Below, in pieces: positions 1 to 39,069 of a DNA stretch of 64,000 nucleotides (its first letter is position 1; every line of letters starts with the position of its first letter). The position numbers and the translations under genes are program-made. Source of the stretch: Rhytidiadelphus loreus (lineage: Eukaryota; Streptophyta; Bryopsida; Hypnales; Hylocomiaceae); NCBI GenBank assembly GCA_947034895.1, contig OX344763.1, forward strand, positions 51,149,025 through 51,213,024, written 5' to 3'. Below the pieces are notes generated by a model, which saw only the letters and a list, made by a program, of their open reading frames with translations, was not told where the DNA came from and did no database searches.

Positions 1-143
1 CTCCAGGGTCTTTTCAGAAACCCCAGACACCCCATATCCGTCAGGTCATCCTCCAGTTGGTGGTGGTATTCCGGATTCTCAGGGATTTCCGGATTGATCA
101 TCCGGGCCGTGATCCCTGACTTCCGTACACTAGGCCCTGCCAT
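1..143 (-). CDS. Gag-like protein, 5' part, cut by window edge
   Basis: On the minus strand an ATG at 143-141 opens a frame that runs off the window start without a stop. The peptide contains MAGPSVRKSGITARM and then LEDDLTDMGCLGFLKRPW. The latter matches LMEDLVTLGCAGLIDKPW in the gag-like protein of the element at 14317-17776, so this is another copy of the same gene type in the opposite orientation. The function is not recognised beyond this relationship. A capsid-like (gag) role is inferred only from the element context. Because the window ends here, the full length and any breaks cannot be judged. Confidence 0.6.
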   Translation of the reverse strand, partial: MAGPSVRKSGITARMINPEIPENPEYHHQLEDDLTDMGCLGFLKRPW

Positions 144-620
144 AACAACTGCCATACTCTATCCTCACTTCTGACTCACTTCTGCTAAGTTTCCGCTAAT
201 CTTCCGTTAAGTTTCCGTCGCCTGATCCGCTAAGTTTCCGCTAATCTTCCGTTCCACTTTCCGGTGCAATCGGCACCGGCCTCCCCTTCTCTCCTTAACG
301 CGTTCCTATCTCACCACACTTTCACTCACTAAGCGCCATCGCGATAATCACGCGGAGAAAGAGGGACAATGAAGCAAACAGCGGGGGTTAAGTAGCTTTT
401 CGGCCTGGCGTTCCCGCAAGTTCCCTAGCCGGACTAGGCCCTAGGGCCTACTCGGCCGGAACTTTCCGGTTTCCGGATTAGGGTTAGGGTTTCCGGATAG
501 GGTTTCCGGAACCGACTGTAACCCTAATTACAGTTTAAGGTTTTCCGTAAAGCCTCTAATTTCTATTTCCGGTTTTAGGCTTCCTATTCCCTACCCATTA
601 CGGAAATTTTGAAAATTTCT
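1..620 (-). mobile_element. Edge of a CCGGA-rich gag-like element, minus strand
   Basis: Bases 144-620 upstream of the partial gag-like gene are dense in TTCCGG/CCGGAA words, as is the complete element at 14317-17776, and very unlike the AT-rich DNA that follows. The stretch contains GGATTAGGGTTAGGGTTT (two telomere-like units) and several TTTCCGGAT words. The outer end of the element is not resolved; GC content drops near 600-620. No terminal repeat could be found because the rest of the element is outside the window. Confidence 0.5.
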
Positions 621-735
621 ACTCTATATAATTACTATTGTTTATTGTTTCTGTCAATGTAGATAATGCGTACTCCCACAGACCGTGTCAAAGCCTGAGC
701 ATGAAATGCATAAACAAAAAAAACTAATACAACTT

Positions 736-750
736 AGGTCGACTCGACCT
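736..750. repeat. Copy-1 palindrome a (perfect)
   Basis: AGGTCGACTCGACCT, a perfect 7+1+7 palindrome about 290 bases upstream of the copy 1 ATG. No counterpart was seen at this position in copy 2. Confidence 0.85.
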
Positions 751-868
751 GATCCCGAACTCTAGAGATTACCAAATCTTTCACACAAAGAAGAGACCAA
801 GATAAAATTCAAAATAATTCAAGAATATAATTTCTAAAATAAATGAGGAATTTAGAATATAACAAATC

Positions 869-883
869 AGGTTGATTTGACCT
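869..883. repeat. Copy-1 palindrome b (both CpG changed to TpG)
   Basis: AGGTTGATTTGACCT. Compared with the copy-1 consensus, both CG dinucleotides read TG, while the remaining arm bases are intact. It looks like a site decayed by cytosine deamination on one strand. Confidence 0.7.
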
Positions 884-975
884 AAAAAGTATCAACAATA
901 GACCCGACCAGTCCTCAGCAATAATCGAAACAATCGGATATTGAAATATTGGAGCTCCATCTATGAATGGAGAAA

Positions 976-996
976 TTTAGATCGGCTCGACCTAAA
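976..996. repeat. Copy-1 palindrome c, 30 bases before the ATG
   Basis: TTTAG + ATCG, spacer GCT, CGAC + CTAAA. It corresponds in position to 8059-8079 in copy 2: in both copies it lies just upstream of an AG acceptor followed by the ATG, so it is probably intronic. Confidence 0.85.
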
Positions 997-1025
997 TATG
1001 TTGGACAACTCACTTGTTGTGCAGT

Positions 1026-2465
1026 ATGGACGTTCAAGTGCCAAAACTTGAAGCCTTCTTCAAGCGATCCCAACGTGAAAGAGAAGAAGATGATGGAGAT
1101 GACATCGACAACGAAGGAGAATACTGGGAGTACCAGAACCCTGAAAAAATGCAATATTGGAGTCTAAAGATGATTCCCTGGAAAAATCTGATCTGCTTCA
1201 CTTACATGTATGTAGACAGTGAACCATATTACTCTGTCTCATTTGAAGAGAAGATCAAGGATATCGCTCCAGACACTGGTACCATTGTAAAAATTCACTG
1301 TGTGACGGCATTGTCTGGGGTACCGGAGAAAGAACAATACCATTTCACATTCATTGTAGACTCCGCAAAAATTCCATTCAACATCACGCCCTTTTTAGTT
1401 ACGCTTGAGCCCACAGAGTATAGAGATGAGATTCCAGAGTTGGAGAAAAATATTGACGATAACTTTTTTAGGTCCATTGCTGGTAAGACATTCATTGGGA
1501 AGACATTGTGTAACAGACTGAGGAAGATGTTCACCGATTTCACTGTGCTAGCAACAAAGCTGGAGTCGAAACGAAAAGAAATGGCACCCAGATCGGTATC
1601 ACAGGACGTTCCAAGCCAAGGAGGAGAAGGACAGGGTTCATTGGGTACCCCCAGCACACAGTCCAGCAGAGGAACAAGAAGAATCCTCAATAGCGCGACA
1701 CCTCCGCCCGGGCCAAGAAAGAGCAATCTGGCGTCCAGTTCATCGAAGAGAGTTGCAGAGCTGAATGCGGATGCCTCCGCCAACATGGAACCTAGCTTCG
1801 CCTCCGAAGTGACCGATGTTCCCGAGGCGCACGATCCAAAAAGGAAACACGATTACAAGAAATCGGCGGAGGCGTACAAAAACTACTAGGCAACATGTAC
1901 TGATGCGTACATATGTGAAATAGAAGAAAAGAAGTCGATCCATATCTCACAATTGATCGCGGCGCCAGCAAAGATGAATATTAGAAGCCACGAAGATCGA
2001 CTGGCAACGGACATGTTGCACTTTCTAGTACATATGCCAGATCATACTACGAAGCAGACTCTATGCGTGATGCCAACAAATCAGGCACTAAAACCCAGTA
2101 AAGAGTCGTGGGAGGAAATAAAAAATGGGGAGTTCTTTTTAATTAATGGTCAGCACAACGTGACGGCCAGCAAGAAGATGGTGGACATGAATTTAGACGA
2201 GTCCATCGTCAAAAACTTCCGGCAGTGGGATTGCTACGTGGTGTGGTCTCAAGATACTGCAAAACTGAGGGCCATCTCTACCTATTATAACCGAGTAAAC
2301 CATTTCATAGCGATGAAGCCGTCCTGGTCAACAAATATCCTAGGAGCCAGAACTGTTTGGGAGGCAATGGGAAGACCAAGGAACCCGAAGGATGCCAACC
2401 CAATCGGAACGCAATCAAATGCTCGAAGAAATGCTGAGAACAAAGCGAACAAAGCGAAGTTTCAG
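1026..2465 (+). pseudogene. Copy 1 exon A: N-terminal domain and DGQHR/ParB-like motif
   Basis: The start is the ATG at 1026, because copy 2 aligns from its own ATG (MDVQVPKLEAFF versus MENQIKALEMYF). The first ~190 residues hold a conserved domain with EYWEYQ, SFEEKIKD, QYHF and LEPTEYRDEI, which I do not recognise. A basic Ser/Pro linker follows. From about 1953 comes a region with NGQH at 2145-2156 inside FFLINGQHNVTASKKM, then YYNRVNHF. The NGQH-x-x-x-A pattern resembles the DGQHR and ParB/sulfiredoxin-like fold (DndB-type proteins), known in bacteria as DNA-associated regulators. TAG at 1887-1889 replaces the Trp of copy 2 (KFWSTC), so it is a nonsense change. The exon ends FQ and is followed by GT at 2466. 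Confidence 0.65.
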
Positions 2466-2525
2466 GTAGCTAACAAACTGCCTGCTTCAATGATATGTGA
2501 ATGTCGTTTTAGAACATGCTAGCAA

Positions 2526-2546
2526 TTCAGATCGACTCGACCTAAA
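2526..2546. repeat. Copy-1 palindrome d, in intron A-B
   Basis: TTCAG + ATCG, spacer ACT, CGAC + CTAAA. It lies inside the intron 2466-2568 (GTAGCTAAC ... GTTCACAG) and matches the position of 9581-9601 in copy 2. Confidence 0.85.
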
Positions 2547-2568
2547 TGTGATTGTATGATGTTCACAG

Positions 2569-3921
2569 GAATTTGTGAAGGCTATGAACAAGCGATTTGC
2601 GATGTTGGATGTTGTCAAGTCGCAGAGAGCATCCCGAGGGAAGGATGCTGAGGAGAAGTTGCAGATTAGGAATGAACTGAAAATCATAACCGCTCCAGAT
2701 CCTGTATTTGCATTGTGGAGCGAAGTCATTTCCAGTAACGCTCATGGCGAACTCATTGACCTCGACACTCTTGTCAAATTTAATAAGAAGGCAGGGTGGA
2801 AGTCAGAGTCAAGAAATCTGACGCATGAATTTTTTAAGTGGCTTGGCAACCTCTCGTACGACGACATGGGTAAATTGGCGAAGCACATTCTTCGCCAAGA
2901 CAGAGTGAAGAGAAAGCACAGTCACCCGAAGGTGACAATAAAATAGGCATCCTCCGTTTTGGAAAGCTGTTATACATACAAGGAGTGGATTGAGCGCCGA
3001 AAGAGGAAGTACCTCGTGAAGAAGGAGTTGAACAACATTGACCCCAGCCTAGGCTTGTTGAACGCCTTCAATGAACTCAACACCCAAAAGTGGAGAGAGT
3101 TCAAAAACAATCGCTCCATTACTAGAGCGACGATGAATGTTCTTCTGGAGCAACTAGGGGATGACTACTGGAAAGAGGCCAAACAGACGAAGTCACGGAA
3201 TAAGAAGACAAAGGTTATTTCACCCTACGCAACAGAGTTCTTTAAGGTCTTCTTAGCTCAGCGTGCAGCATTTGTAAAACCCATTGCGGTGGCGCATTAC
3301 CGACCATATGACATCAACAGGGATGAACACTCGAATTGGCCTGTACGTGCGTGGACGGAGAGCACTTTGTCTGGGATAAAATTCGGCATATTAGATTTTC
3401 GATACACTCCAGTTGTGCTCAACAAAAGCAAATGCACTCCAGCGATGCCGTATTTTTTTGCGGTTATGAATTCGTTTCAGGCAATGAAGAAGCCCTTGCT
3501 TCATGAAATTCAAACCTGGCTCTTCATCTGTTCTGATCTAGTTGAGCAAACTCAAGCCTTGCACTATATACAGAGCGATGTGGTCCTCAAGACATACCAC
3601 ATGGATTACGCGGACTACGTGCCAGCGAAGCATGAACGAATGGGAGATTATTCTGTGAGTAATAGCAAGGCAGTCAAGAAAGTGTATTTGACCTTTCTGC
3701 AGCATCCGGATAAGGCAACAATCATTCCTCCCAAACCAGCCTACCGTGCTCCCAACACCAACGTCTTCAATAAGCCGCGGGCATACAATGAGTTGGAGTA
3801 CCGCATTCACAATACTGAGTTGCGCATGGAGTTTTACATAAACATCCTTAGGCGCTACTCAATCGGCTGTAGGAGTGTCATGTCATTGTTTGCAGGGGCG
3901 AAATTCACATGCGCTGCAATG
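2569..3921 (+). pseudogene. Copy 1 exon B: conserved central region
   Basis: The exon opens with EFVKAMNKRFAMLDVVK, aligned with VFEKAMYVRFSMIDVVK of copy 2. Further shared landmarks are LITAPDxVxxLWSEVI, FFKxLGNLSYDxxxKLAKH, KEWxERRKRK, LGLxNAxNE, GHYRPYE/AHYRPYD and ELEYRIxNTELRMEFY. An in-frame TAG at 2944-2946 (after VTIK) interrupts it; copy 2 has Ser there. The exon ends after GCTGCAATG and is followed by GTATGT. The length (~450 residues) and the even distribution of conserved Trp, Tyr and charged residues suggest a folded region, but no family is recognised. Confidence 0.6.
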
Positions 3922-3931
3922 GTATGTTGTA

Positions 3932-3952
3932 TTTAGGTCGAGTCGAGCTGAT
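3932..3952. repeat. Copy-1 palindrome e, 13 bases after a splice donor
   Basis: TTTAG + GTCG, spacer AGT, CGAG + CTGAT. It lies just inside the intron that starts at 3922, as 11064-11084 does in copy 2. Confidence 0.85.
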
Positions 3953-4070
3953 TATTGCGTGGATAGTATATTGTGATTTGAATTCCTACGTCGATTCATT
4001 CAAATAACAGGGATATGGAGTTCAGCAATTTAATGCTGATTATCTGAATTACTGTGCAGTCTTTGAGATG

Positions 4071-4091
4071 TTTAGGTCGGCACGACCTAAA
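4071..4091. repeat. Copy-1 palindrome f, before exon C acceptor
   Basis: TTTAG + GTCG, spacer GCA, CGAC + CTAAA; both nine-base arms pair perfectly. It lies about 50 bases upstream of the exon C acceptor, like 11160-11180 in copy 2. Confidence 0.9.
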
Positions 4092-4142
4092 CTGCATGAA
4101 TCATCAATTCACTAACATCCAATATTTGAATTGCCTGTGCAG

Positions 4143-4890
4143 ATGCTAGGGCTTAATGTCTACGCCGTCGGGACATCTGACGAGTTGGATCCTTGGACAT
4201 CAATTGTCAATCTGGGAAAATCGTTAGACAAGAATGACTTTCTTCCGGGGGGATACTACGTGGACGAGATGTACCACAGTAGGAAACCTGGTGGTCCTTC
4301 AATGCCATTATCGTCTAAGAGAAGGCATAAGTCTACATGGAATTTGACACAGACTCCTTCATCGCAACCAGGGCCATCACAGCGAGAGAGTGTTGATTTA
4401 GACACTGACGACGACAATTCTGATGACTTTGTGCTCAAGGAGGATTACACTCCCATTAATTTGTCCCAGAATGTGGGGACATCATCTGCGTCGTCAGGGC
4501 AACCGGTTCGCGTGGAAATGGTCGAGACTCAGCCATCGAGCACGCTACCACCCGTGCACCATGGGAAGCGGAGGAGGGCCGCCTTCGACCAGGAGGACTA
4601 CGGTTCGCAAATCGCACAGTTGTGAGCAGAGAGGCCTGATGTTCTACCGCCGCTTCCCCCGACAGAACTCGTCCCAGACGTTCCTCCCCCACCTCCCCCG
4701 AGCGACATTGTCCCCGACACTCCAGCGCCACCACCCGAGATTGAATTGGAGGCTACTGGAACGAGGGACTCGATTGTATCACCTGAAGTGGATCCTTCCG
4801 TCTCTGTTGATTTGGATGTCGTTGTGGACCGATCACCAATAAATGTTGACCAGCGAAATGTCCATTCGGATGAATCAGATGAAACTGCAG
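4143..4890 (+). pseudogene. Copy 1 exon C: Ser/Pro/acidic segment
   Basis: The start (MLGLNVYAVGTSDELDPW) aligns with MSNVNVFATGMGTQSAWW of copy 2. The rest is low-complexity: Ser/Thr-Pro rich, an acidic DLDTDDDNSDD run, a KRRR basic patch that could act as a nuclear signal, then poly-Pro (PPLPPTELVPDVPPPPPP). An in-frame TGA at 4623-4625 interrupts it; CGA to TGA at a CpG is the simplest origin. The exon ends CTGCAG with GT at 4891, exactly as copy 2 does at 12250. Function is likely a disordered linker or activation-type region. Confidence 0.5.
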
Positions 4891-4926
4891 GTTGATCAAT
4901 ATAATCACTCAGTGAAATTTTGTAGT

Positions 4927-4947
4927 TTTAGGTCGTCTCAACCTGAT
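4927..4947. repeat. Copy-1 palindrome g, in intron C-D
   Basis: TTTAG + GTCG, spacer TCT, CAAC + CTGAT. It lies about 37 bases after the donor at 4891 and corresponds to 12293-12313 in copy 2. One CG reads CA. Confidence 0.8.
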
Positions 4948-5137
4948 TTGTATTAAACGTAGGTGTAGTTTTTAAATCAGAGACAAATACTATTTTTTGG
5001 TGAATTAAAACTCTTTGTGAATGGAACGACAAAGTTCATAATTTTGATCAATATGTCTTGTATTGTATTGTCTGTTTTCTGCGGAATTAATATAATATGT
5101 TCTTACATTTCCCTTTTTCTATAATTCTAAATGGCAG

Positions 5138-5414
5138 GCCCAGTTGCTGTTGATGTTATGCCTTCCTCCTCCAATCTCATTCCAAATGAAGAGCATGATG
5201 TTCTTCATGTTGATCACGATGATATTATGGACGTCCCCAGGAAGTCACGGAGTTGCCAGCCCTTGAAGTAAAAATCCTACCCTCAGCAGAACCGGAAGTT
5301 GAGAATGATGATTTAGTCTTTCCCGAGATTATGCTCGGGGAGGTCGCAATTCAGCAATCTCCAATGAAGGTGTCCGATGTCGTCAAAATGTCGCGGGACT
5401 CAAATCCTAATCAG
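5138..5414 (+). pseudogene. Copy 1 exon D: acidic linker
   Basis: It begins after GGCAG at 5137 and joins exon C in phase (Gly codon split after its first base), as in copy 2. The peptide is acidic and disordered-looking (HVDHDDIMDVP, then EVENDDLVFPEIMLGEV). A one-base deletion near 5235 moves the frame. Resuming in the next frame gives a clean run to the GT at 5415. Confidence 0.5.
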
Positions 5415-5593
5415 GTATTACTTCTGTAACTGTAAATTAAAATTGCCGTAATCTCGATTGTCATACTCCATGCAATAGCCAGAGTTCATCTTTTTTTTTC
5501 TTTTTTTTCATTCATTTTGTATTTTGGCGTTCGGTTCGTAAATGTGTCAATGCAGGCTAGTAACTGGCTGCACATTTGTATCTTTGATAGCAG

Positions 5594-6388
5594 GGTCCGG
5601 ATCCTCCACGTCTGCGTGGAGAGCCGTCAAGGGAGGGAACTATTCCATCCAGGTCCGGGGTGACGGAGAAGTGGCTCAACGTCATCCTTGACCTGAATGG
5701 GATTTTATGTGCGACTACAGATTTGAAATCGAAGGGCTATTATAGTCACGTATTAGATCCTTCGCAGGGCCAGTCGGCGACAAATCCCACCATTCTGGGA
5801 TCAAAAGAAGTTCATGTGAGGCAGCACTGTTCTCAGTTCCTGAGTGAATTAGGAAAGATAGCTACTATTTCAGTGCGGAGCTCCATGGTTATGGCCAACA
5901 CTGAACGCGTAGTCAAGCATCTTTTCGATGGTCTACAGAGCCCCATAATTGTACTTGCTCAAGACACCTGCACGACTCTTAAGTGTAGGGATGGCTTTGG
6001 AAGGGTCGTTACTTTCAAAGAGTTGGGTACAAATAAGGACCTCTTCCTCAAGAACTTGAGTGCCTTGTTCAATGGCTCACGTGGGAATTTTACGTCGGAT
6101 AATACTATCATAGTGGACGACAGTCCAAGTAAGCAAATCATGAATAAGAGCGAGAATGTAATTCTCCCTGAAACTTGGACGAACAGGGGGAATGATCCTA
6201 AGGATACGTTCCTCTTGGATGTCCTACTGCCGTGGTTGAGGCGCCTTCACTGCAGTCGTGAAGTTGGCCTCAAATCATTTAGGGCTAATAGTTCGGCAAA
6301 AATTGGTCGGCGAATGCTATGCGACGAGCGCAATAGGTGAGAATACAACAGGCTCATGGACGTGGTTAGAGTGTCTAAGACTCTGACA
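5594..6388 (+). pseudogene. Copy 1 exon E: FCP1-type HAD domain
   Basis: After an AG acceptor at 5592-5593 the frame is open through WLNVILDLNGILCAT, where Asp-Leu-Asn-Gly at 5690 stands at HAD motif I. The nucleophile Asp is kept, but the usual second Asp is Asn. IIVDDSPSK at 6113-6127 is the C-terminal Asp-Asp motif, and KDLFLKNL holds conserved Lys residues. The order and ~200-residue size fit NLI-interacting/FCP1-like phosphatases, known to act on phosphoserine in RNA polymerase II tails. Catalysis here is uncertain because of the Asn. The reading stops at TGA 6338, where copy 2 has CGA (Arg); reading through gives EYNRLMDV, matching EYENLMEV. The same TGA overlaps an AG-GTGAG donor consensus. 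Confidence 0.65.
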
Positions 6389-6444
6389 TGAGTCTGATAA
6401 TCGTATTAGGCAATTATTTTAGGGCCATTTCAACGACTACGAGG

Positions 6445-6465
6445 ATTAGCTCGAGTCGACCTCTT
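6445..6465. repeat. Copy-1 palindrome h, between exons E and F
   Basis: ATTAG + CTCG, spacer AGT, CGAC + CTCTT, the most degenerate of the set. Its position matches 13194-13214 in copy 2. Confidence 0.65.
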
Positions 6466-6730
6466 TCGAGGACTACCAACCTTAGATGGAGTGAAACTGT
6501 TTTATAGATAGTAGTCGATTGTGGTTGATTTCGACTTCCTTGTACATATTGTGATGTTTTTAATAAAACTGGAAAGCATTTCAATTTCAAAATGTCTTTG
6601 TCTTTTTGTTTCAGGCGATGTCATTTGCCTATATTAGTTGAGTAATTCTCAGTTCTCATAATGTGATGTTTTCATTGTGGACCCTCTGTGTCTTCAATAT
6701 GAATATTTTTTGAATGTTTTGTTTTTACAG

Positions 6731-7275
6731 AGTATTTGTATCTTCACGTCCTCAGATCCGAATGCAAGTCTTGAATGCGCGCGTCGGTAGATTCAATATG
6801 GGAATATGGACAGAATGCAATTCTGAGCACTGGGAATTTCCTATGCTCTGCTGCAACCGCCAATTCCACTATGGATTTCTCTCTGAAGTCGGTGGATGAC
6901 GATGTCGTTGACAGTCCGCCAAGTAGAACTCCTCGTCCACCGAAATCATGCTCCCCTTCTCCCCTTCGATCTAGACCTCCATTCATGTCTCAAGTGTCGC
7001 TGATTGCTTCAGAGAGAGTGCCACAAAGATGATTGTACGAAGAAGCTGGAACCTCAGTTCTCCCTATGCTGCAGGAAGAGGTGCCTGGAAAAATTGTAGA
7101 AAATGTGGTCGTCCCTCCTTCTCGTAGACCACCACATCCACAAGACAGTGTTAGGTCCTCTGGCGCGCGGAAGTCGAAGATTCACGATGGAACACTGCCA
7201 ACTCGGCGCATACCCCCATATTTGGACACATGGAATCGAAAGCTCATTCAGCTCCAGAAGCGGCAGATGCTGTGA
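6731..7275 (+). pseudogene. Copy 1 exon F: Ser/Pro-rich C-terminal tail
   Basis: It starts after TTTTTACAG. From 6775 the peptide DSIWEYGQNAILSTGNFLC aligns with DSILDYGQYVILNTGNFLC of copy 2, followed by the shared CSPSPLRSR. TGA at 7030-7032 interrupts the frame, which continues to 7275 (RKLIQLQKRQML). The first bases of the exon are in another frame, so one more indel lies near 6770. No family is recognised. Ser-Pro dipeptides suggest a phosphorylatable tail. Confidence 0.5.
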
Positions 7276-8058
7276 GAGTACAAAAAACGAGACAATGGAT
7301 ACAACCGGGGTCCGGAGATCTTTCGGGCGATGGAAATGTTGAAGAGTAAAACACACATGTAGTACCTGTTCATATTGTTCATGCACGGTCTACACATTCA
7401 AAGAAGTTGTGTAGTTACTGTATAGAACTCAAAGTAGTGCATTCATGGTGCTCTACTATTTTGTAGCTAATGAGCGAACTTAAATTGTTAATAGCACTTG
7501 GAATCACATATGTTCTAAGGCAACGAGTGGAGTATTATGCGCTACTGTCTTCTCTAGTATGCAAAGTAATCGTTACAAGAAGGTATTGAAGCCGCTTTAT
7601 AGTGAATCCGGGGGGGATATGAGGGTTTGTTTATATGGTTTCCGGGCTACTGCTTTGCAGAGTACTTCTCAGCTGTTGACTTCAATGGTTCCAAGACCTT
7701 GTGGTCATGGGCTCATATACCATGATATACTCTTTGCACACTTCAAAATCACTACATAGTATGGGAAATGGGAATGCGGTACTTCGCGGCCTGGAATGAA
7801 ATCTTAGGCAATGCTTTTTATCCCGCACGTTTTATTATGTGTTCATCCATTGCGTGTATATTTTATGGAAATCTTCTTTTGTTGATGGTGCATAACACAA
7901 TCACTGCATTGTTCTATGAAATATATATTGTTTGGGATGCCAATCAATTGCTTTTGTCGTGATCATTGAGAAAATAGACTCCCATTTCATTGGAAAACTC
8001 TCATTTTAATGAATATAGTGTTGTAAACACAAACTCGCACACAGTGTACCCCGTGCAC
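7276..8058. other. Spacer between the two gene copies
   Basis: About 780 AT-rich bases with no supported gene, presumably the 3' end of copy 1 and the 5' leader of copy 2. Several short frames exist but none shows conservation or codon bias that I can see. Confidence 0.4.
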
Positions 8059-8079
8059 TTTAGCACGGTTCGCGCTAAA
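8059..8079. repeat. Copy-2 palindrome a, upstream of the ATG
   Basis: TTTAG + CACG, spacer GTT, CGCG + CTAAA. It lies 48 bases before the ATG at 8128 and upstream of a TGATGTAG acceptor-like sequence. Confidence 0.85.
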
Positions 8080-8127
8080 CAACAAACATATCACAAATTA
8101 TCTCACTCCTTTGTCGTGTGATGTAGA

Positions 8128-9574
8128 ATGGAAAACCAGATCAAGGCTCTGGAAATGTACTTCAAGAAGTGCGAAGTCCAGCTTCACGAGGACGATAAAA
8201 GTGCGAACGATAACCTCATCAAAGGAGAATATTGGGAGTTCAAAGAACTAGAGAGAGTAGAATCATGGAGCTTCTTCATGATTCCTTTCATAAACCAAAT
8301 CTGCTTCTTTTACAAGTTCAGGAATGCACAGTGCCACCTACAGCTTTCCTTCCACGAGAAAATTAAGGATGTAGAAGCTGACACGCATCCCATGATCAAA
8401 GTCAAATGTATGACAATAATACCTGGATCTCGCCGACAGGATCAATACCATTTCGCTATTTGCATTAACTCCGTCTTGATTCCCTTTCATCTCAGTCCCT
8501 TCCTATCGAGTCTCGAACCAACTCCCTACCGCGACGAGATCAAAGAGCTCGAAAAGAAGCTGGATAACAACGAGTGGAACAATGCCAATGGGACTCCTCT
8601 TTCGTGGAAGAAACTATGCAGTAAAATCCGCATGCTCTTTAACAATTCACACGCTCAAGGGAAAGATGGAGATGCAACAAGAAAATAACAGACCTCGATC
8701 TGTATCAAAGGAGATCATGAATACCGGAGTCAGCCAGACATTAAAACTGAAGATTAAGCAAGAGCCCGGTGCTAGTTGAGGTCAGAGGAAGCCTGCGACG
8801 CCAGCGTCCAAGGCCCAACCGCGGAAGGGGAAAAAAGCTGCTACCCCAACCTCCAAAAAGACAAAGCCACCAAAGGAATCCGAAACATCAGAGGTGGCAG
8901 AAGGAAGTTACGTGGACGAAATGGAAAATGTGCCACACTCTCGGGCAACAAAGAACAAACCTGACTACGAGCACGTCAGCCAGGTGTACAAGAAATTTTG
9001 GAGCACCTGCGACGATGCTTATATCTTCGCTCTCGATGAGAAGAAGGAGATCGACATTTCCCAACTGATTGAGGCACCTCCGACATATAATGTCCGTTCC
9101 AAAGAAAACCGCATTGTCGAAGACATGGTGAATTATCTACTCAACATACCTGACAAGAGTACCAAACAAACACTATGCGTTATGCCCGTCGGCTTCAGCC
9201 ACAAGCCAACAAGGTGGGAGGACATTGAGGATGGAATATTTTACATCATCAACGGACAACATAGTGTTGAAGCAAGCAAATACATGTTCGATGACGACAA
9301 CGTGGACGTGGATGAGAGGGAGCACTTCCGTAAATGGAACTGCTTCGTTGTGTGGTCACAGGACGCTAAGAAGTTGCGAGCCATCTTCGCGTATTACAAC
9401 CGAATAAATCATTTTGTGGCGGTCCAACCATCGTGGGCGACCAATATCCTCGGAGCACGGAAAGTGTGGGAAGACATGGGAAGGCCCGAGGATCCAACGC
9501 AAACAAAGTCCGTTGGATCTCTAGCGGCCACAAGAAGGACCGTCAAGAACCGGCATAAGAGAGAAGCATTCCAG
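8128..9574 (+). pseudogene. Copy 2 exon A: N-terminal domain and DGQHR/ParB-like motif
   Basis: ATG at 8128 opens MENQIKALEMYFKKC, with the conserved EYWEF, SFHEKIKD, DQYHF and LEPTPYRDEI marks of copy 1. A one-base shift near 8645 changes frame. The second frame runs through a Lys/Ala/Pro-rich basic linker, reads through TGA at 8777-8779, and enters SQVYKKFWSTCDDAYIF. It then reaches IINGQHSVEASKYM (NGQH at 9251-9262), WNCFVVWSQDAKKLRAIF and YYNRINHF. The NGQH loop and the following NR-I/V-N segment are the points shared with DGQHR/ParB-like proteins. The exon ends AFQ, followed by GTGCGT at 9575. Confidence 0.65.
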
Positions 9575-9580
9575 GTGCGT

Positions 9581-9601
9581 TTTAGCGCGAGGCGCGCTAA
9601 A
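9581..9601. repeat. Copy-2 palindrome b, in intron A-B
   Basis: TTTAG + CGCG, spacer AGG, CGCG + CTAAA; both nine-base arms pair perfectly. It starts six bases after the donor GT at 9575, inside the intron 9575-9689. Confidence 0.95.
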
Positions 9602-9689
9602 CTGCAACATTAAAAATTCATTTCATTAATTTCTCGGGATATATGAACATGTTTTCAACTCTGATGACATTTCCTTAAACATGTTTCAG

Positions 9690-11044
9690 GTGTTCGAGAA
9701 GGCAATGTACGTCAGATTCTCCATGATTGACGTTGTGAAGAATTTGAAAATCTCAAAAACAAAGTCGAAGGAGGAAAAGCTAAAGCTAACCAACGAACTG
9801 AGACTCATCACGGCTCCCGATGAGGTGTACAGACTCTGGAGCGAGGTGATCACCGCTGCCGCGCACAGAGAACTCTTCAACCCCGACACGGACATGATGT
9901 TCAATGAAAAACCGGGTTGGAATCCCGAGAGTTGCATGTTGAATCGTGAATTCTTCAAGCACCTGGGTAATTTGAGCTATGATGAAATAGCAAAACTTGC
10001 TAAACATCTGCTGAATCAATCGGGAGGAAAACGCAATAATGCTTACCCGAAGGTCACGGTCAAGAGTATCACCTCAGTCCTAGATGACTGCTTTAGCACC
10101 AAGGAGTGGGTTGAACGTCGTAAGCGGAAGAACCTCGTGATCAAGGAGCTTCATGAAATCAAACCTCAACTTGGGCTCATGAATGCTCGTAATGAGATCA
10201 TCAATGAGAACTGGAAGGCCTTCAAAAAGGAACGATTCTTCTCGAGCGCCACTATGGATGTACTCCTCGACAAACCAGGAGAAGCCTACTTTGGCAAAGC
10301 GAAGAACAAGTCTTCAAGAAACAAGACGATCACTGACCTGTCCCAGGATGCCTATGATTTCTTCAAGATGTTTCTCCTGCACAAATCAAAATTCGAGAGA
10401 CCAACAGCAAGTGGTCACTACCGGCCCTATGAGTACCTCGGAAACAGTACTAAGGAATGGCCAAAGAAGGTGTGGATTGCGGAGACTAGAAACTATCTTG
10501 CGTTGGGGGTGATTGACTTCAGGTCCTTGCCAGGAATTGAGAAGAAGGAGAGTTCTACGGTGGACAAACCGTACTTCGTCGAAGTACTCGTGTCAATGGA
10601 GGTGAAAAAAAAACCTGCACTTGAAGATGTTCCATCATGGTTCTTCATTTGCGGTGACGAGAAGGAGCAAGCCCAGGTTTTCAAATATATTGAATTTAAC
10701 GAGGTTCTCGAATCGTATACGATTTCGTACTCCGTGTACTCTGTTGGGAAGAACGATCGCCTCGGAGATCTTCCTGCAGTGAAGACGCCGAAGAAAGTGT
10801 TCTTGATCTTCTTGCAGGATCCCCAAAACGAAAACACGGTGGAAATTCCAGAGGAATTCGAGTGTCCGGAGATGGCACGATACTTGAAAGGCTGAAAGCG
10901 CGCGCTTACAGTGAGCTTGAGTATCGGATATACAACACCGAGTTGAGAATGGAATTTTACTTGTGGCTCGTAAAAGCCTTCTGCAAGAGTGGCATGTCAA
11001 TCTATTCTGCTTTCACTGGGGGGAAACTTACGTGCGCGGCCGTG
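9690..11044 (+). pseudogene. Copy 2 exon B: conserved central region
   Basis: It runs from VFEKAMYVRFSMIDVV to KLTCAAV before GTAAGT at 11045. One uninterrupted frame covers most of the ~450 residues shared with copy 1 (WSEVITAAAHRELF, FFKHLGNLSYDEIAKLAKH, KEWVERRKRKNLV, SGHYRPYEYLG). A single-base shift near 10890, after EFECPEMAR, separates the final block ARAYSELEYRIYNTELRMEFY. There is no TAG at the position where copy 1 has one. No family was recognised; long-range conservation across two decayed copies implies the region was under selection before decay. Confidence 0.6.
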
Positions 11045-11063
11045 GTAAGTAATGTGGCTGCAC

Positions 11064-11084
11064 TTCAACGCGAGTCGCGCTAAA
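11064..11084. repeat. Copy-2 palindrome c, after the exon B donor
   Basis: TTCAA + CGCG, spacer AGT, CGCG + CTAAA, 19 bases after the donor at 11045. Counterpart of 3932-3952. Confidence 0.85.
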
Positions 11085-11159
11085 CAAACATGTGAATGTC
11101 AGTTGATCTGAATGATAATATCACTCAATTTATGTTTTCGCATTAGTACCAGCTGCCGA

Positions 11160-11180
11160 TTTAGCGCGGGCCGCGCTAAA
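11160..11180. repeat. Copy-2 palindrome d, before exon C acceptor
   Basis: TTTAG + CGCG, spacer GGC, CGCG + CTAAA; both nine-base arms pair perfectly. It lies 52 bases before the exon C acceptor (CTTGGCAG ending 11232). Counterpart of 4071-4091. Confidence 0.95.
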
Positions 11181-11232
11181 GCGACTGGTCTTTCTTGATA
11201 ATCGAAATAATCATTTGATTTTGTCTTGGCAG

Positions 11233-12250
11233 ATGAGTAATGTGAACGTCTTCGCCACTGGAATGGGTACTCAATCAGCATGGTGGGAAGACATTTGTAG
11301 AAAGGCAATGACACTAGATATAGCGGACTTTCTTGACAGTGGGTACGCGAGGGCTGCTGCAGCTGGTCCAAGTACTACACCCCCCTCTGCGAAGAGAAAA
11401 CTGAGGTCGTCTCAGACATCCGAAATGAGTGATCCTCTGTGGAGGGAGGTTCCACGCTATGATGATGTTGCATCTGATTCGGAATCCGATGAGGAGGAGG
11501 AAGACATCGACGAAGATGGACCTCTGGGGATCGATGAAATGGCAACTCCTACAAGTCGACCATCGATAGATATACCTGGTTCTTCGGCGAGCTCTATGTT
11601 ACCTCCATTGTTTGGGACGCCGAGGACTGCTACTCCGTTTGGGCGGCCACATAAAAAGAGGAAGCACAATTCAATGTCAAGTATCGCGCAATAGTTGGCT
11701 GAGATTTCAGCGCAAAATGCAGTTTCCTTGGCTAATCTACAGCAACAAACTCAGTTGATGCAGCAACAAAACGAGCTTGCACTGGCGCAGTTGAGGGCGG
11801 AACAGATGAAGGAGAGGGTTGAAAACCTTGAAATGCACAAGCGTAATCAAGAGTGGATGCAGTTGGAGTCTCAAACCAACCGAGAGCTAGCCCAACAAAA
11901 TAGAGAAATGCTGCAGATCTTGATCAAGAAGGTCGGGGTTGAGCCGATCGCAGCGTTGCCACCTCCTGCCGAGACTCCAGTGTTGGAGCTGCAAGGTCTG
12001 GCGTCTGGCTCTAACGTCAGCAATGCCTCCAGTTCGTCGCTGCCTGTGCCGGTGTCTCCGCCACTTCCCAGTAGTGCACCGGAGTCTCCACCTGCGTTGC
12101 CGATCGATGATGATCCTGTTCATAACCTCTCATCCCCGAAGGCTGCACCAATTTTGCCCTCAGAGACGGACATTGGGCATAACCTATCCAGTGATGCTTC
12201 CGAGGTGGAGCTTGGAAGTGATGCCCTGCCCACCGAAGATCAACCTGCAG
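11233..12250 (+). pseudogene. Copy 2 exon C: acidic, Gln-rich coiled-coil and Pro-rich segment
   Basis: After ATGAGTAATGTG the peptide aligns with copy 1 over NVFATG ... ADFL. It then has an acidic run (SDSESDEEEEDIDEDG), a basic PHKKRKH patch and a Gln-rich helix (NLQQQTQLMQQQNELALAQL, continuing to LIKKVGVEP) that looks like a coiled coil. A Pro/Ser tail follows. TAG at 11692-11694 sits between SSIAQ and LAEIS; CAG to TAG is the obvious origin. The Gln-rich helix is absent from the shorter copy 1 exon. It ends CTGCAG with GT at 12251. Confidence 0.55.
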
Positions 12251-12292
12251 GTTCTGCCCAATAAACACTTAGTCATCATTGCCTTGTGTAGA

Positions 12293-12313
12293 TTTAGCGT
12301 GGCTCGCGCTAAA
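12293..12313. repeat. Copy-2 palindrome e, in intron C-D
   Basis: TTTAG + CGTG, spacer GCT, CGCG + CTAAA. It lies 42 bases after the donor at 12251. Counterpart of 4927-4947; one CG reads TG. Confidence 0.9.
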
Positions 12314-12502
12314 CTGTTTGGTAGAGATTGATCTCAAATTTTGTAAATAGGAGCAGTAATCGATGCTTATCGAACATTCATGGTAGAGGCATTAGTTCTG
12401 GTTTGGACGATTCTGGACTCAGTTTTGTATTGTAAGAGACAGTTATCTCTGAAAATGTAATATATATCTCACAAAGAAACTTTTCCAAATCGTGAATTGC
12501 AG

Positions 12503-13096
12503 GCCATGTGGATATGGAAAGTTGTCCTGAGGTCTATGTCCTCCCTTCTACACAAAATGAACTGGTGACGACATCACATTTTGAAACTGAGGATGATAAT
12601 CTAGTCACGACAGTTGAACTCCTAGAACTCGATGACGATACGTCACCTCTTCCTCGTTCTGGGGCAAGACTCCTGCAAGACTATTAAGTGCAGGGATAGA
12701 GCCGGAAGGCTGACCTCTTACAAGGAACCAGGAACAAATAAAGATTTGTTCCTTAAGAACCTAGATTTCCTCTTCTCAGGCTTCTACGGAAATTTCACTT
12801 CTCAGAATACAGTGATTGTGGATGGTAGTCCGCGCAAAGATATCATGAACAAGCCTGAGAATGTGATATTAGCGGATTCTTGGAGCAACCGAGGAAACGG
12901 TGACAAAGACATGTTCCTTCTGACGGTCCTTCTTCCTTGGTTCCAACAATTGCATGTCAACCGCAGCAATGGTTTGAAGTCCTTCAGAGAGAATAAAAAA
13001 TGGAGGATTGGGAGACGGATGCTGTGCGAAAAACGAGGTCGTCGAGAGTATGAAAATCTTATGGAGGTCCTCCGTGGGTCAGCTAGTGTTAGTTAG
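12503..13096 (+). pseudogene. Copy 2 exons D/E fused: linker and truncated HAD domain
   Basis: After TTGCAG (ending 12502) the linker reads GHVDMESCPEVYVLPSTQ ... LLELDDD. Then, without an intron, it joins LVLGQDSCKTIKCRD, which matches LAQDTCTTLKCRD deep inside the copy 1 HAD domain. The first ~100 residues of the HAD domain, including motif I, and the D-E intron are missing, and the junction near 12645-12655 shifts frame. VIVDGSPRKDIM at 12818 has Gly where copy 1 has the second Asp. A phosphatase is therefore not expected. The end (RGRREYENLMEVLRGS) is intact to TAG 13094. Confidence 0.6.
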
Positions 13097-13193
13097 ACGT
13101 GTTTTTGGAGGTATGCAGCTAGTCGTGTTTTTAGAGTCCAGAGAAATTGTATCGAATGTAATACGCTTATTTTGGCACATTTCTCTATTGCAT

Positions 13194-13214
13194 TTTAGCG
13201 CTGCTCGCGCTAAA
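13194..13214. repeat. Copy-2 palindrome f, between exons E and F
   Basis: TTTAG + CGCT, spacer GCT, CGCG + CTAAA. Counterpart of 6445-6465. Confidence 0.9.
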
Positions 13215-13342
13215 ATGTAGTTGGGATAATGTTTTCCGTGAAATTTAATGGCTTATTGATGTATCTGAAGGTCAAGCATAACCATCTATACTTATGATGC
13301 GTTGACAATTCTACGGCTAATTCTGTTTTTGTTCTCTATCAG

Positions 13343-13867
13343 ATGAGAAACGGGTCTACCAGTTCCAGGATTATTGAGATTCTTCCGTGTCAAGCGTCCG
13401 AGGACTCTATTCTCGACTATGGACAATACGTCATACTTAATACGGGGAATTTCCTTTGCTTGGCCCCGACTATTAATTCCACCATAGACTTCTTTGTCAA
13501 GCACGTCGAAGACGGTGTGGTAAACAGACCCCCTGACAAGAGGCCGCGCTTGCCAATTTCGTGCTCACCATCTCCTCTGCGCTCTAGAGTAGCCAGGGAT
13601 TCGTCAACGTCGCCAACTATTTCTGAGAAAGGGATGCAGAGGAAGCTTTACGGAGATGCTAATTGTTTGATGACGACACCAGAAGTGAAAGTCCATACGC
13701 CAAGTGACCCGCTCTCGTTTGAAAAAAAAACTAGACCTGCTGGCATTCGACCTCTGCTTCCACGTTGCCGTGCATTGTCTCAATCAGCAAGATTAAAGAG
13801 AAATGCGGAGAGGTCATGTAGTACTCAGTCCTCCACTCTTACTTGGGACTCTTGGGAGAGAAGGTAA
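13343..13867 (+). pseudogene. Copy 2 exon F: Ser/Pro-rich C-terminal tail
   Basis: It starts after CTATCAG with MRNGSTSSRIIEILPCQAS, and DSILDYGQYVILNTGNFLC aligns with copy 1. CSPSPLRSR is shared. It ends STLTWDSWERR before TAA at 13865. This block is a single open frame in copy 2. The hAT pseudogene begins only a few bases later on the other strand, so the gene's 3' end is abutted or truncated by it. Confidence 0.5.
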
Positions 13868-13870
13868 CTA

Positions 13871-14316
13871 CTAGCACAAAAAAGACAGCATATGCGTCAA
13901 GAAGGTGCAGGTGTCCGGGGGGGGTACAGTCATGGGCCTGAAATTATCACACTCGTTCCAAAACGCTTCTGAACGAATGTCCTCTCGCACCACCCGTGCT
14001 TGACGTTGAATATTGTGCCCATTCCTTCTAGACGCCAAAGATAGCTCAAAAGGCTGATATTTCTCGTCTCCCAGCAAGAGGTGCAATGCTTGCTTGACCT
14101 CCACCAAACGGTCTATCATGAGGAAGTGAATAGCAAAGCGTATACAGCAAGGAAGTTTCAACGACTTATTCAGTGAGTACTTCCGAAATAGAGCCAAAGT
14201 GAGATGATACTTCTTCACAAACACCACAATCTGTTTACATCTTGCCACCCAAATCTTCACACGTGGATCCTTCCCCCAATCTTCTACAAGTAAATCCATA
14301 ATGTGTGCAGCACATC
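13871..14316 (-). pseudogene. hAT transposase, 3' part (split by insertion)
   Basis: On the minus strand the peptide reads CAAHIMDLLVEDWGKDPRV ... CCIRFAIHFLMIDRL, the block that follows GC in plant hAT/DUF659 transposases. It is the continuation of the segment at 17777-18790. Rejoining the two at the ACATC duplication restores Met-Gln-Gly-Cys-Ala-Ala-His in frame. The C-terminal dimerisation region typical of hAT proteins is not present: similarity ends near 13937 and the frame stops at 13871, next to gene copy 2. The protein would cut and paste hAT DNA, but this copy cannot be functional. Confidence 0.8.
14312..14316 (+). repeat. Target-site duplication ACATC (left)
   Basis: ACATC precedes the element start TGTTG at 14317 and recurs immediately after the element end at 17777. 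Removing one copy plus the element restores the hAT reading frame. Confidence 0.9.
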
Positions 14317-14863
14317 TGTTGCAACGTGATTTCTGTTTTCTTCTTAAGTTATCTAAAAATTTGGATCAGAAGTTCTTGGCAGGAACTCCTATCTGGTTTA
14401 CAGATAAGTAAGAATCGGAAATTAAGGCAGGAATGAAGTAAGGTAGCTAACCGGATAATAAATCTGAACCGGAATAGTTCGGAACCGGAATAATTCTGAC
14501 CGGATTAGATTAGGTCAACCGGATTAGGGTAACCGAATTAGTTAATGATGACCTAATTTGGCGGCACTGGCAGTATATAAGGGAGCGCCCTACCAGTTAG
14601 TTCCCTTTTTTCACAACCTGTGTGTAGGAGCCTTCTCACTACTAGAGTTGTTGTTGTGCTGTCCAGTTGATGTTTTTGTCAGATCTGTGAGGAAGAGTGA
14701 AACTATTGATTGTTGTTTTTGTGCGCTGCGGGGTTGGAAATCCGCAGTTGCAAAGTTGTCGCTTTCCGGTTATGCGCTATGAGGGAAAGTGAGATACGGG
14801 ACGTGCGGCTAGGAGTGGAAAGAAAGGTAGAATCGGTAAGAAGTTTTTGAGCGGAGTGCGTCC

Positions 14864-16488
14864 ATGCCGCAGTTACGTAGGCCTTGACAGAACATAGCCA
14901 CGGCGGAGATCAAACTGAAGAAGGTGATTCCGGTCATCACCGCATGGGAACTGGAAAAGGCCACTCTCATGGAGGATCTTGTCACTTTGGGCTGTGCGGG
15001 TTTGATAGATAAACCTTGGGGGTTTAAAGAGGAGAAGGTAGTTCGGGAGATATTGGGGAAGGTCTCGAACGCCTTCGACAACACCGTCAGAGGCAATCCA
15101 GGCCGCTGGACGGAAGAGAAATGGAGGTATACGGTTTCCAGTCAGGAGGTTTGGGTACCGCCAACCGGAAGGACGAGTACATTAAGGGGAAGTTTGCGGA
15201 ACCAGCCAACCTGAAGGACGGATTCGCGGTGGAAGATTGTGTGGATGAGTGGAACCGGAACTTACTCAAGTTCCTGATTCCGATCTTCCATCCGGAGCGG
15301 CCGACGAGGGTAACAGTGACCCTCGGAAACACGATCTTCGGTGCGCTTTCCGGTCAGCGAAATGCGGATTGGGCCCGGGTACTAAGCGACCTGGTGAACA
15401 ATCTGGTACCCCGGAAAGGGAAGAGTAGGCCAACACCTCTCTCTCCCTATCTCCTTCACTTGTATCACCATGATTAGGTCCTGACGGAGACGGAGGAGAA
15501 GACCTGGAGAGCTCAGGAGTCCATCTTGAAGTACGGGGAGTCGGAGACCGACGAAGAACTGGAAGACGAAGGGACGGAAACTGAAGAAGAAGACACGGAG
15601 GTCGAGGATGAGCATTTGAAGCGGGTGAAGAGGCAAAAGATGACGCCTCCACACGGAAGAGGTACACCGACCCGGGAGACAGCAGAACCGGAACGGAAAG
15701 CGAACAAGAAACCGGTAACCGGAGAGGGTAGCTCGACCGACCTCTTCAACACTCTAGTGTTAGCCATCGCTGACATCCGTGTGGACTGGGAGTGTAAGCG
15801 GATTACACTCGAGAAGATCGGGAAGCTGGCAGAAGTATCACCGGATCGCCAACTGCCCAAGGTAATAGCGGACCTCATCAGTAATCCGGGCGAGGACCGG
15901 AAGCTGAGGGAGGACAATCGTCGACTATAGAATGAAGTCGACATGCTGAAGGAGGAGATTGCCACCTTCAAGGAAGACATGACCGCCACAAGGGAGATGG
16001 CGGATGCGACCCAGAAGACAGCAAAGCTTATGACCGAAACATTCGGGGAGTCCGGAATGGTACTAGCAAAGGCGAAGCTGTTTGATGAAGGGTGGCTAGC
16101 GGACAAGAAGCCATCCGGTTCCCGGATGGTCCGGATTCTGTCAGACTTCTCCGAGAAGTTGGAGACGATTTTGATAGGAGCTCGAGAAGCTGCGGACCAG
16201 ATGAGCCGGAGCAGCGTGAGGTTGACCGGGACAGTACTCTCAAGGAGTCTCCGCTTGTCGGATCTCTGCTTGCCAGAGTTACTTCCGGAAGGTGTGGACG
16301 TCACTCTTCAATCGAAGAAGGAGCGGTCGGTGGCGAGAACTGGATTGCCAGAACTTATTGAGGTGGAATCATCAACAGAGAAGCCGGATCCTGCTACTAG
16401 TGAGCGAGTCCGGAATTTGCAGGACATCTTCAATGAACTGCCGCCAGAGCCTGACAGTGACGCACCGAGGGCAAGTATGGGAGTTTAG
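14864..16488 (+). pseudogene. Gag-like protein of the inserted element
   Basis: ATG at 14864 opens MPQLRRP, then TGA at 14885, then QNIATAEIKLKKVIPVITAW and LMEDLVTLGCAGLIDKPW, the block shared with the partial gene at 1-143. A one-base shift near 15115 leads to FQSGGLGTANRKDEYIKGKF, DEWNRNLLKFLIPIFHP and RVTVTLGNTIFGALSG. After TAG at 15475, an acidic run (ETDEELEDEGTETEEED) and a basic patch follow. After TAG at 15928, a helical segment (NEVDMLKEEIATFKEDM) runs to the end at 16488. Both TAG codons look like former CAG. Gag-like is inferred from position and composition; no zinc knuckle is visible. Confidence 0.55.
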
Positions 16489-17776
16489 TAGGAGTTCCCC
16501 TTGTTGGTAAATATTTAGATGTGTAATCGGATTGTTAGTAGTAACCGGACCGGATTAGTTTCTGGTCTGTTAGTTAGGAACCGGAGTCGTTCCCGATTTT
16601 AGTTAGGGTTTTGTAACCGGATCAGATCCGGTTTTGACGGCGAATCTTATCCCGAAAGTTTTGCGCGGATTTTTTGTGCGGACTTTCTGGGATGCTTTTG
16701 CGCTTTTGGAACTTTTCAGTGTATATAAATTCATTCTCTGAGATGGAGAATGGGAGTCATTCCATTGTTTAAACTTCTTTTGTATTTTGTATTGCTTCTT
16801 GCTTGTATGATCTCCCAAAGATTGGCAGGACAGATTTGTGAGGAGTTAGGAGTGCATTTAGAGTTTGACTTTGGGTTTCTCCCTTTGGTGTTTGTGTTCC
16901 GGTTTCTTAGTGCATGTGGGCAGGTAGTAAGAGTTGGGAGTCTATTCCAGTGCCTCAGTTTTATTGAGATTCAGTATTCCGGTTGAGAAAGTCGTTGCTA
17001 GGCTAGGCGAATAGGGAAGGGATCCTTAGGCGCGCTAGAACTCCTGGGTAGGGGATCCGGTTGAGTGTCCGAACTCTTGTGAGGTCTCATTGCTGTAGTG
17101 GCGAATGGAAGAATCTTTGTAGAATTAGAACAGACGGATAGACTTATAGTCGCCTTGCTTCGTACTACCAGAACGCCGCACCATTGTCGTTGTAATATGA
17201 GTGGATCGTACGGGGGGTCTTTGTGTGACCTGTAGTCCGGATCTGTTTCCGGGTTACTGTGAAAGATCAAACCGGATCCGGATTAGAATAGGAGAGTAGA
17301 GTAGAAGAAGTGGGTCTTCAGCCACTATAAGTCACGGAAGGAGCGGCGGGCCTGCCACTCTCAAATTCAAGCGGTGACCCCTCTGATGGTAAAACAAAGG
17401 CAAAATTAAACCGGATTGGTTACTGGATCGAGTGGAAGTAGACCAGAAGTGAGAGGTCTAAGAGTTGTACCCAGGACCGGAAGTGTAAAGGTCTTGGTTT
17501 GTTGCAAAGTGACGGACCAGATTACTTCCTGGTCCGGATTACGTCCAGGACCGGAAGATTGTAGGAAGTCCGATAGTTATTTCTGTGGGTTTTGTTGTTT
17601 CCGGTTGCAGGAGTAGGACCGGAAAGGTGTTGTTGGAGACTGACTTAGCTTAGAATCGTAAATAGGGTGAATACTTCACAGAATCTCGTGGGTTCGATCT
17701 TTAAAGTCACTTTTGTTATACTTTAGAGTGGTTTTTGGTAGTATAACATGGGAATTGCTTATCCTGTACTGCGACA
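16489..17776 (+). other. Non-coding 3' part of the gag-like element
   Basis: About 1.29 kb without a supported gene. It is rich in AACCGGA words, has TATATAA near 16723 and GGGTTCGATC near 17692 (reminiscent of a polymerase III B box, without a tRNA fold around it). It probably holds the element's 3' untranslated and terminal sequences. Confidence 0.4.
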
Positions 17777-23556: not shown

Positions 23557-23878
23557 CACGGTAGATTGGGCTGGAAATGAACTTAGCCAAAATCTAACAA
23601 AGGGCTACACTATACGAAGAGTGTACTGGCAACTCTCTAACGACCGCAAAATTTAATTTCGGTAATTACATCAACACTTGTGCATTCAAAATATGCCAAC
23701 AACTGTATTTTCGAAATCACTGAATCCCTATAGTACGTGTCGGTGCATAGGATGTGGTATAAGGGTTCAAGACCCTACGTTCTAGCGCACGTGCATGCAT
23801 CTAGTCGCTTCAAGGCGGATGGAAGATAGAGCGCAGCGCTAGAAGTGACCAAAAAGAAATGCGGACCGGCTTTTTGTA

Positions 23879-38900: not shown

Positions 38901-39069
38901 TGTGACGTTGTCGTTGATGCCCGTAATTGATTGTTGAAATGAAGACCTTGTGACGATACCGAGAAATGTGATAAAGTAGAAGAAGTTAAAGTTTCAACAA
39001 ATAGGGCTCATGCATGTAGCCATGAATGGATACAAGACACTAAGCCAAAATGATGAAAAGTGTTGATGA

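Follow-up and report, generated by a model that had tools for sequence, protein, structure and literature searches.

Why should two neighbouring, related genes carry in their introns and leaders a set of similar palindromes whose inner letters are largely alike within each gene and different between the two? The question is raised by a 64,000-nucleotide stretch of the Rhytidiadelphus loreus genome (the window; C3:51149025-51213024 in a genome of 407 Mb), in which the two genes, copy 1 and copy 2, lie side by side. An earlier note on this DNA regarded them as paralogous genes and asked for either selection with a dimeric binder or homogenisation to account for the palindromes. The genes in fact belong to transposons. 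These form one transposon family with subfamily-specific palindromes, and on balance we consider it somewhat probable that the element's own protein binds them as a dimer, marks its own kind and counters host silencing.

All 12 palindromes described in the earlier note are present where it placed them, and their one-to-one pairing by leader and intron is correct for every pair; the sites have no strand. The copy 1 leader site at 976-996 (inner half-sites ATCG/GTCG) pairs with 8059-8079 of copy 2 (CACG/CGCG), and the intron 1 site at 2526-2546 (ATCG/GTCG) with 9581-9601 (CGCG/CGCG). Intron 2 holds two sites in each gene, 3932-3952 (GTCG/CTCG) and 4071-4091 (GTCG/GTCG; genome match C3:51153095) in copy 1, and 11064-11084 (CGCG/CGCG, with one outer arm TTCAA) and 11160-11180 (CGCG/CGCG) in copy 2. 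In intron 3, 4927-4947 (GTCG/GTTG) corresponds to 12293-12313 (CGTG/CGCG), and downstream of the exon encoding the NIF phosphatase domain a weak palindrome at 6445-6465 (CTCG/GTCG, an identical hybrid being present in relatives L065 and L066) corresponds to 13194-13214 (CGCT/CGCG). The outer frame TTTAG/CTAAA, proposed to be constant, is exact on both sides at seven of the 12 sites (976, 4071, 8059, 9581, 11160, 12293 and 13194), but the other five have one to four outer-arm changes, 6445 being the most changed. The copy 1 leader also contains a palindrome that had been overlooked (733-753, GTCG on both arms) and a decayed one of family D3 (866-886), whose counterpart in L065 is intact. With a single rule that scores the TTYAG/CTRAA frame, an inner-edge CG and symmetry, 13 sites are found in positions 1-14000 of the window and none in the other 50 kb, against a mean of 0.15 and a maximum of two in 60 Markov shuffles of 1-14000; a chance origin is rejected because of these shuffle counts and the zero counts of the genome-wide controls given below.

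The scan was extended to 60 loci (L004-L063), five stretches of 9-10 kb (L064-L068) and two contigs of another organism (L002 and L003), together with the window. Half-site counts rest on 267 sites in 63 elements or pieces; they omit L004, L005, L008, L034, L035 and L036, which are already contained in a longer stretch or the window, and also L069, L070 and L001. The rule scores the CG at inner positions 3-4 and not the two variable letters, so that the class of a site is not built into the result, although conservation of the CG is so in part. Judged from these counts, the inner tetranucleotide differs by subfamily, the classes being GTCG, CGCG, CTCG and, from the read-through of database proteins, ATCG. 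In the copy 2 subfamily 156 of 202 half-sites are CGCG and none is GTCG; in that of copy 1, 117 of 154 are GTCG, with 18 ATCG, five CTCG and no CGCG. CTCG accounts for 46 of 48 half-sites in CTCG family A, all 14 in family B, 15 of 20 in L068 and 31 of 32 in the two contigs of the other organism. These last are binned in a cyanobacterial metagenome-assembled genome though they carry an intron-containing gene; because of the introns and a NIF/SCP phosphatase domain in L003 (PF03031, E 2.4e-14) we judge them to be eukaryotic, and they are likely a contamination of the cyanobacterial bin.

Where 9-10 kb of an element was read, the sites number 10 or 11; five or six precede the ATG and the rest are intronic or downstream. 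The paralogues read thus carry palindromes on the TTYAG/CTRAA frame with mostly one inner tetranucleotide per subfamily, as had been anticipated, but uniformity within each paralogue does not hold throughout. The seven elements L026-L032 form a mixed group with CGCG, CGCT and AGCG, plus CTCG in intron 3 (21 of 52 half-sites CGCG, 11 CTCG); L051 mixes GTCG, ATCG and CTCG; and some database proteins read through an ATCG-type and a CTCG-type site within one intron. The contrast of GTCG with CGCG apart from single-base decay likewise stands as regards the two codes, but the A with which an inner half-site begins at 976 and at 2526 is not random decay; it reflects an ATCG/GTCG hybrid that is subfamily-wide (16 of 77 sites of the copy 1 subfamily). 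The 3-base spacer is not free: position 10 is a purine and position 12 a pyrimidine in 207 of the 267 sites.

Genome-wide placement follows the same division. Perfect GTCG palindromes occur at 33 places in the 407 Mb (control, none), and 29 of these are no more than 15 kb from a copy-1-type exon 2, in a zone that makes up 0.13% of the genome. At a limit of 30 kb from the exon-2 places of the copy 1 group (18, L051 included) the number is 30; of the remainder, one sits 2 kb from a different subfamily, another is 30.6 kb off and the third is isolated. Perfect CGCG palindromes occur at 168 places (control, none). Among the 50 of these for which placement was determined, all on C1, 42 have a copy-2-type exon 2 no more than 15 kb away and none is near another subfamily only; the other eight form one cluster with no scored exon 2 there, and the cluster spacings of 58, 323, 120 and 80 mirror those at C1:48062583 (79, 120, 323 and 59). 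Seven perfect CGCG leader sites lie upstream of an element gene at C1:211941-212403, with spacings of 84, 46, 85, 83, 83 and 81, and five elements have further sites 9.6-10.8 kb upstream of exon 2. One viral contig also holds a single perfect GTCG palindrome, TTTAGGTCGGGTCGACCTAAA (L001:13125-13145), which is likely there by chance; no protein relatives were found in viral contigs by the patterns used.

That the palindromes reside in mobile elements is indicated by their copy number and boundaries. The copy 2 exon-2 protein gives at least 104 matches at at least 103 places (scored among 1008 first-look candidates) and that of copy 1 at least 123 (scored among 881). Two copy 1 relatives, located on separate chromosomes, share 97.3% identity along 12.0 kb, which is as far as they were read. 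Chromosome C3 holds 57 of the 103 copy-2-type exon-2 places yet only about 21% of the genome length, so that this chromosome, or an arm of it, may be rich in transposons. Within the window, homology of copy 1 to L065 delimits the 3' part of a GTCG-subfamily transposon at 680-8026 (+), with 94-95% identity over 821-7974, 75% over 680-941 and 98% over 7970-8026; its relatives extend further upstream. Copy 2, of the CGCG subfamily and truncated at both ends, occupies 8023-13945 (+), over which it is 94-95% identical to L064. These homology limits mark copies 1 and 2 as two adjacent elements, both damaged. The 3' terminus (7970-8026, +) is conserved, with TAGTGTTG at 8016-8023 and TAGTGTTA or TAGCGTTA in four relatives, and this 3' end is common to different subfamilies. 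Searching the genome with TAACACTATATTCANT gave 47 forward and 33 reverse matches, against one and four for the reversed control, and seven of the 80 places, chosen by eye, are suitably oriented and precede an exon 2 by 12.5-16.9 kb; most of the remaining places are not assigned to elements, and both exact ends were read in no single element. These matches suggest inverted ends and an element length of roughly 18-22 kb, with 19.1 kb for C4:27523911-27543025. No transposase was seen in the element stretches read, in which a PF02992 search was not made, and the 3 kb further upstream (L069 and L070) contain short frames only, with no clear gene, these frames not having been searched against families. 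A hAT transposase adjoining copy 2 was considered as part of the element and rejected, as the homology of copy 2 ends at 13945 and L064 and L067 have a different 3' end.

The depth of the system and the direction of code change can be approached through the database proteins, which are open frames, some of them running on into an intron. Among 120 examined of the 138 exon-1 matches, 35 extend beyond the exon by 12 residues or more, and in 27 of these a palindrome is seen by translation (11 ATCG, nine CGCG, two CTCG, and one each of GTCG, AGCG, AACG, TGCG and a hybrid); the counts are confined to tails past the exon end, as a peptide scan gave chance matches in coding exons (LAKHLL, LGNLSL). 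A distant group of 11 proteins, P0057 (37% identical to copy 2) and P0190-P0199, has intron-2 palindromes in seven, all fitting CTCG; phage records gave no match to P0057. In the exon-2 tree, built from a manually thinned set of 36 rows from the loci, rooted for drawing only and including six outside rows with no class, CTCG appears on three branches: in the other organism, in the sister group of GTCG, and in L068 beside CGCG (support is 100/99 for the GTCG and the mixed group and 91/98 for CGCG). By parsimony on this tree CTCG is most likely ancestral and the mixed group L026-L032 most likely intermediate, which would make GTCG and CGCG two separate shifts of one base per half-site. The earlier argument that two symmetric substitutions separate GTCG from CGCG at every site therefore most likely falls, since CTCG stands beside both, one change per half-site from each.

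Is there selection on the sites, and on what? Among 22 CGCG copies the diversity of the arms is 0.049 in intron 1 and 0.057 in intron 2, compared with 0.237 and 0.185 outside the arms in these introns and 0.149 at third codon positions, so that the arms are 3-5 times less variable than the remainder of introns 1 and 2. A cruder measure with fixed 100-base flanks gives 0.058 in arms against 0.124 in flanks for CGCG, 0.058 against 0.107 for GTCG and 0.063 against 0.125 for CTCG, one of 11 sites (4108) not being lower in the arms. CpG letters in the arms are also lower in total (0.101 against 0.151, 0.125 against 0.181 and 0.083 against 0.208), though not at three of the 11 sites. Pairwise substitution rates, computed without the exon-1 frames of either copy in the window and, for the GTCG set, without L045 (one codon shorter), indicate purifying selection on the protein between two CGCG clades, where the synonymous rate (dS) is about 0.5, the nonsynonymous rate (dN) about 0.04 and dN/dS about 0.08. 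Within the CGCG clades dN/dS is larger, in one case exceeding 1; GTCG has values of 0.07-0.38 in 10 pairs, and CTCG family A of 0.36-0.95 in five of six pairs.

Gene conversion or duplication among the sites, with no binder, could in principle have made them alike, and the seven leader sites 46-85 bp apart on C1 and an 85-bp duplication that includes one palindrome in L065 speak for this. Between different sites of one element, however, the arms are 87-95% alike while the flanks are 31-37% alike, near to the 29-31% of random pairs if slightly above it, and the arms are conserved across copies of clades separated by a dS of about 0.5. Homogenisation is thus disfavoured, and we consider it the least probable of the explanations treated here; selection with a binder, the other option put forward in the earlier note, is favoured. 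Almost as improbable is a role as RNA hairpins that would aid splicing or export of the pre-mRNA. The gene-proximal sites are indeed intronic or before the ATG, but mismatches among 130 distinct 21-mers comprise 54 G-U and 62 A-C pairs, so that wobble pairing is not preferred; a hairpin would place positions 10 and 12 in its 3-base loop, yet they keep their symmetry; and further sites occur about 10 kb upstream. The low arm diversity, the near-random flanks, the spacer symmetry and the lack of G-U preference therefore favour a DNA-binding protein with two-fold symmetry.

The binder might be a host dimeric factor that silences or regulates the elements, which then drift away from it, and RNA-directed DNA methylation does target the same non-coding DNA as VANC, an anti-silencing protein of Arabidopsis VANDAL transposons (PMC10398659). 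Escape from a silencer would nevertheless be expected to erase the sites, yet the arms are conserved, and identical new letters have appeared at about 10 places per element; we regard a host factor as improbable. The likely candidate is instead the element's own protein, which would bind as a dimer, with anti-silencing as the probable outcome.

This protein is predicted to contain, in order, a PH-like region, a ParB-N-like region, a DNA-methyltransferase-like region that lacks DPPY, and a NIF phosphatase. In copy 1, exon 1 (1026-2465, +; open reading frames 996-1889 and 1890-2522, donor placed by eye) has PH-like and ParB-N-like regions by comparison with relatives and an in-frame stop at 1887-1889; exon 2 (2569-3921, +; splice sites placed by eye) is methyltransferase-like by the same comparison, with an in-frame stop at 2944-2946; and a NIF/HAD phosphatase frame follows at 5591-6340 (+; PF03031, E 2.8e-14). 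The copy 2 exon 1 region (8128-9574, +) has its frame broken between 8688 and 8780, with 138 homologues for 8780-9571; its exon 2 (9690-11044, +), again methyltransferase-like by relatives, changes frame near 10892 and has 69 homologues and 103 genomic places; and its NIF/HAD frame is partial (12626-13096, +; PF03031, E 3.4e-5). Exon-1 models of relatives gave a match to a putative ParB-N-like fold, and their exon-2 models adopt a putative beta-class N6/N4 DNA methyltransferase fold. The catalytic [DNS]PP[YFW] is present in none of 41 rows of alignment A2, some of them partial, and D281 and R283 of a DFR stretch at the motif's likely place are at least 90% conserved. No match to a helix-turn-helix that would read parS was found for the exon 1 or exon 2 models, residues 421-470 of the exon-1 model having a predicted local distance difference test score below 50, and profiles searched against PDB sequences gave weak matches alone (best E 0.39 and 6.8).

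If the element's protein is the binder, its dimers would seat on the many dyads along the element, possibly spreading or clustering in the manner of ParB, and would keep the element's chromatin open. A change of a contact residue in the protein would be answered by a corresponding change at every site, and such a code switch would split the family into subfamilies that no longer help one another. The same protein might instead bind its sites for transposition or autoregulation (promoter repression, copy-number control or assembly of the ends), a reading that we think rather unlikely but weightier than a host factor. The five or six sites before the ATG, the additional sites 9.6-10.8 kb upstream and the apparent CACTA...TAGTG termini all speak for it, and these termini, like the presence of a repeated motif, recall En/Spm of the CACTA group. 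TnpA of maize Spm acts with subterminal repeats at the element ends, whereas the sites described here are also intronic, far from the ends, and in introns kept across species. We prefer the keeping open of the element because the dyads cover the pre-ATG region and introns and not only the ends, an arrangement that fits expression from an open element better than end assembly.

A narrower reading, that this is a eukaryotic ParB-parS-like transposon system, we hold only tentatively and think less probable than the general one. In it a ParB/dead-methyltransferase/phosphatase fusion would spread as an anti-silencing clamp, and protein and dyads would switch code jointly, from CTCG to GTCG, CGCG or ATCG, with L026-L032 caught half-way. 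ParB-parS sites are palindromic, and a further likeness to ParB-parS and Noc-NBS of bacteria may lie in the modelled ParB-N-like fold. ParB and Noc are a related protein pair with different DNA preferences that can be switched through four residues (PMC7383237), but they are bacterial, while the present system is in a eukaryotic transposon with about 10 sites per element, has methyltransferase-like and phosphatase parts, and shows no helix-turn-helix match in its models. VirB of Shigella is a ParB-family protein that counters H-NS silencing from specific sites (PMC10676424) and so offers an analogy for a ParB-type anti-silencer; it differs in being bacterial and in its H-NS target, and no family of codes is described in the portion of that account available to us.

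The closest parallel is that of VANC and the VANDAL elements, which are Mutator-like elements of Arabidopsis, and its publication means that a system of this form, of which the earlier note knew none, had been described (PMC5735166). VANC binds short family-specific motifs in VANDAL introns and other non-coding DNA and removes methylation (PMC5735166, PMC10398659). Family-differing short motifs in introns and non-coding DNA are present here too, and the seven-site CGCG array on C1 resembles the VANDAL motif arrays; VANC evolves with its motifs (PMC5735166), and by analogy the candidate binder here would likewise be element-encoded. The VANC motifs are short tandem repeats, YAGTATTAY and AGTTGTCC/AC, with no mention of palindromes in the part of that paper available to us (PMC5735166), whereas the present sites are 21-base dyads, mostly single in introns. 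The predicted ParB-N-like, methyltransferase-like and NIF regions also set the present protein apart from VANC, by description and not by comparison of sequences. By analogy the system therefore resembles VANC/VANDAL, and what appears new is the different set of protein folds and the dyad sites. Fungal DNA transposons bearing TET/JBP genes similarly carry an epigenetic modifier, but their enzyme is a dioxygenase and the available part of the account describes no family-specific binding sites (PMC12730594). No account of a ParB-type transposon protein with palindromic sites appeared among the open-access papers listed in literature searches.

If the favoured reading is true, transposon self-recognition through private DNA codes would have been invented a second time, independently and with a bacterial-type fold. 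As the sites are clean dyads in which two letters vary, and as there are four or more codes and one or more mixed subfamilies, the joint change of a specificity and about 10 dispersed sites could be both traced and tested, and by analogy the protein could serve as a sequence-specific local anti-silencer.

Elsewhere in the window, a DUF659 (hAT-type) transposase frame lies at 17759-18583 (-; E 2.2e-26) and seemingly continues, by eye, at 13871-14365 (-), adjoining copy 2 where its 3' end is truncated; the latter piece matched no Pfam family. A CCGGAA-rich element at about 14370-17745 is inserted between the two pieces. Together with the introns and the NIF genes, the DUF659 gene marks this DNA as eukaryotic. 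Three further frames, 21976-23604 (-), 32303-32740 (+) and 36522-38993 (-), share by eye an unnamed N-terminal domain with the pattern KAF.GW...W....WCHI.K.FP..RH, and one of them has a weak RING-like finger.

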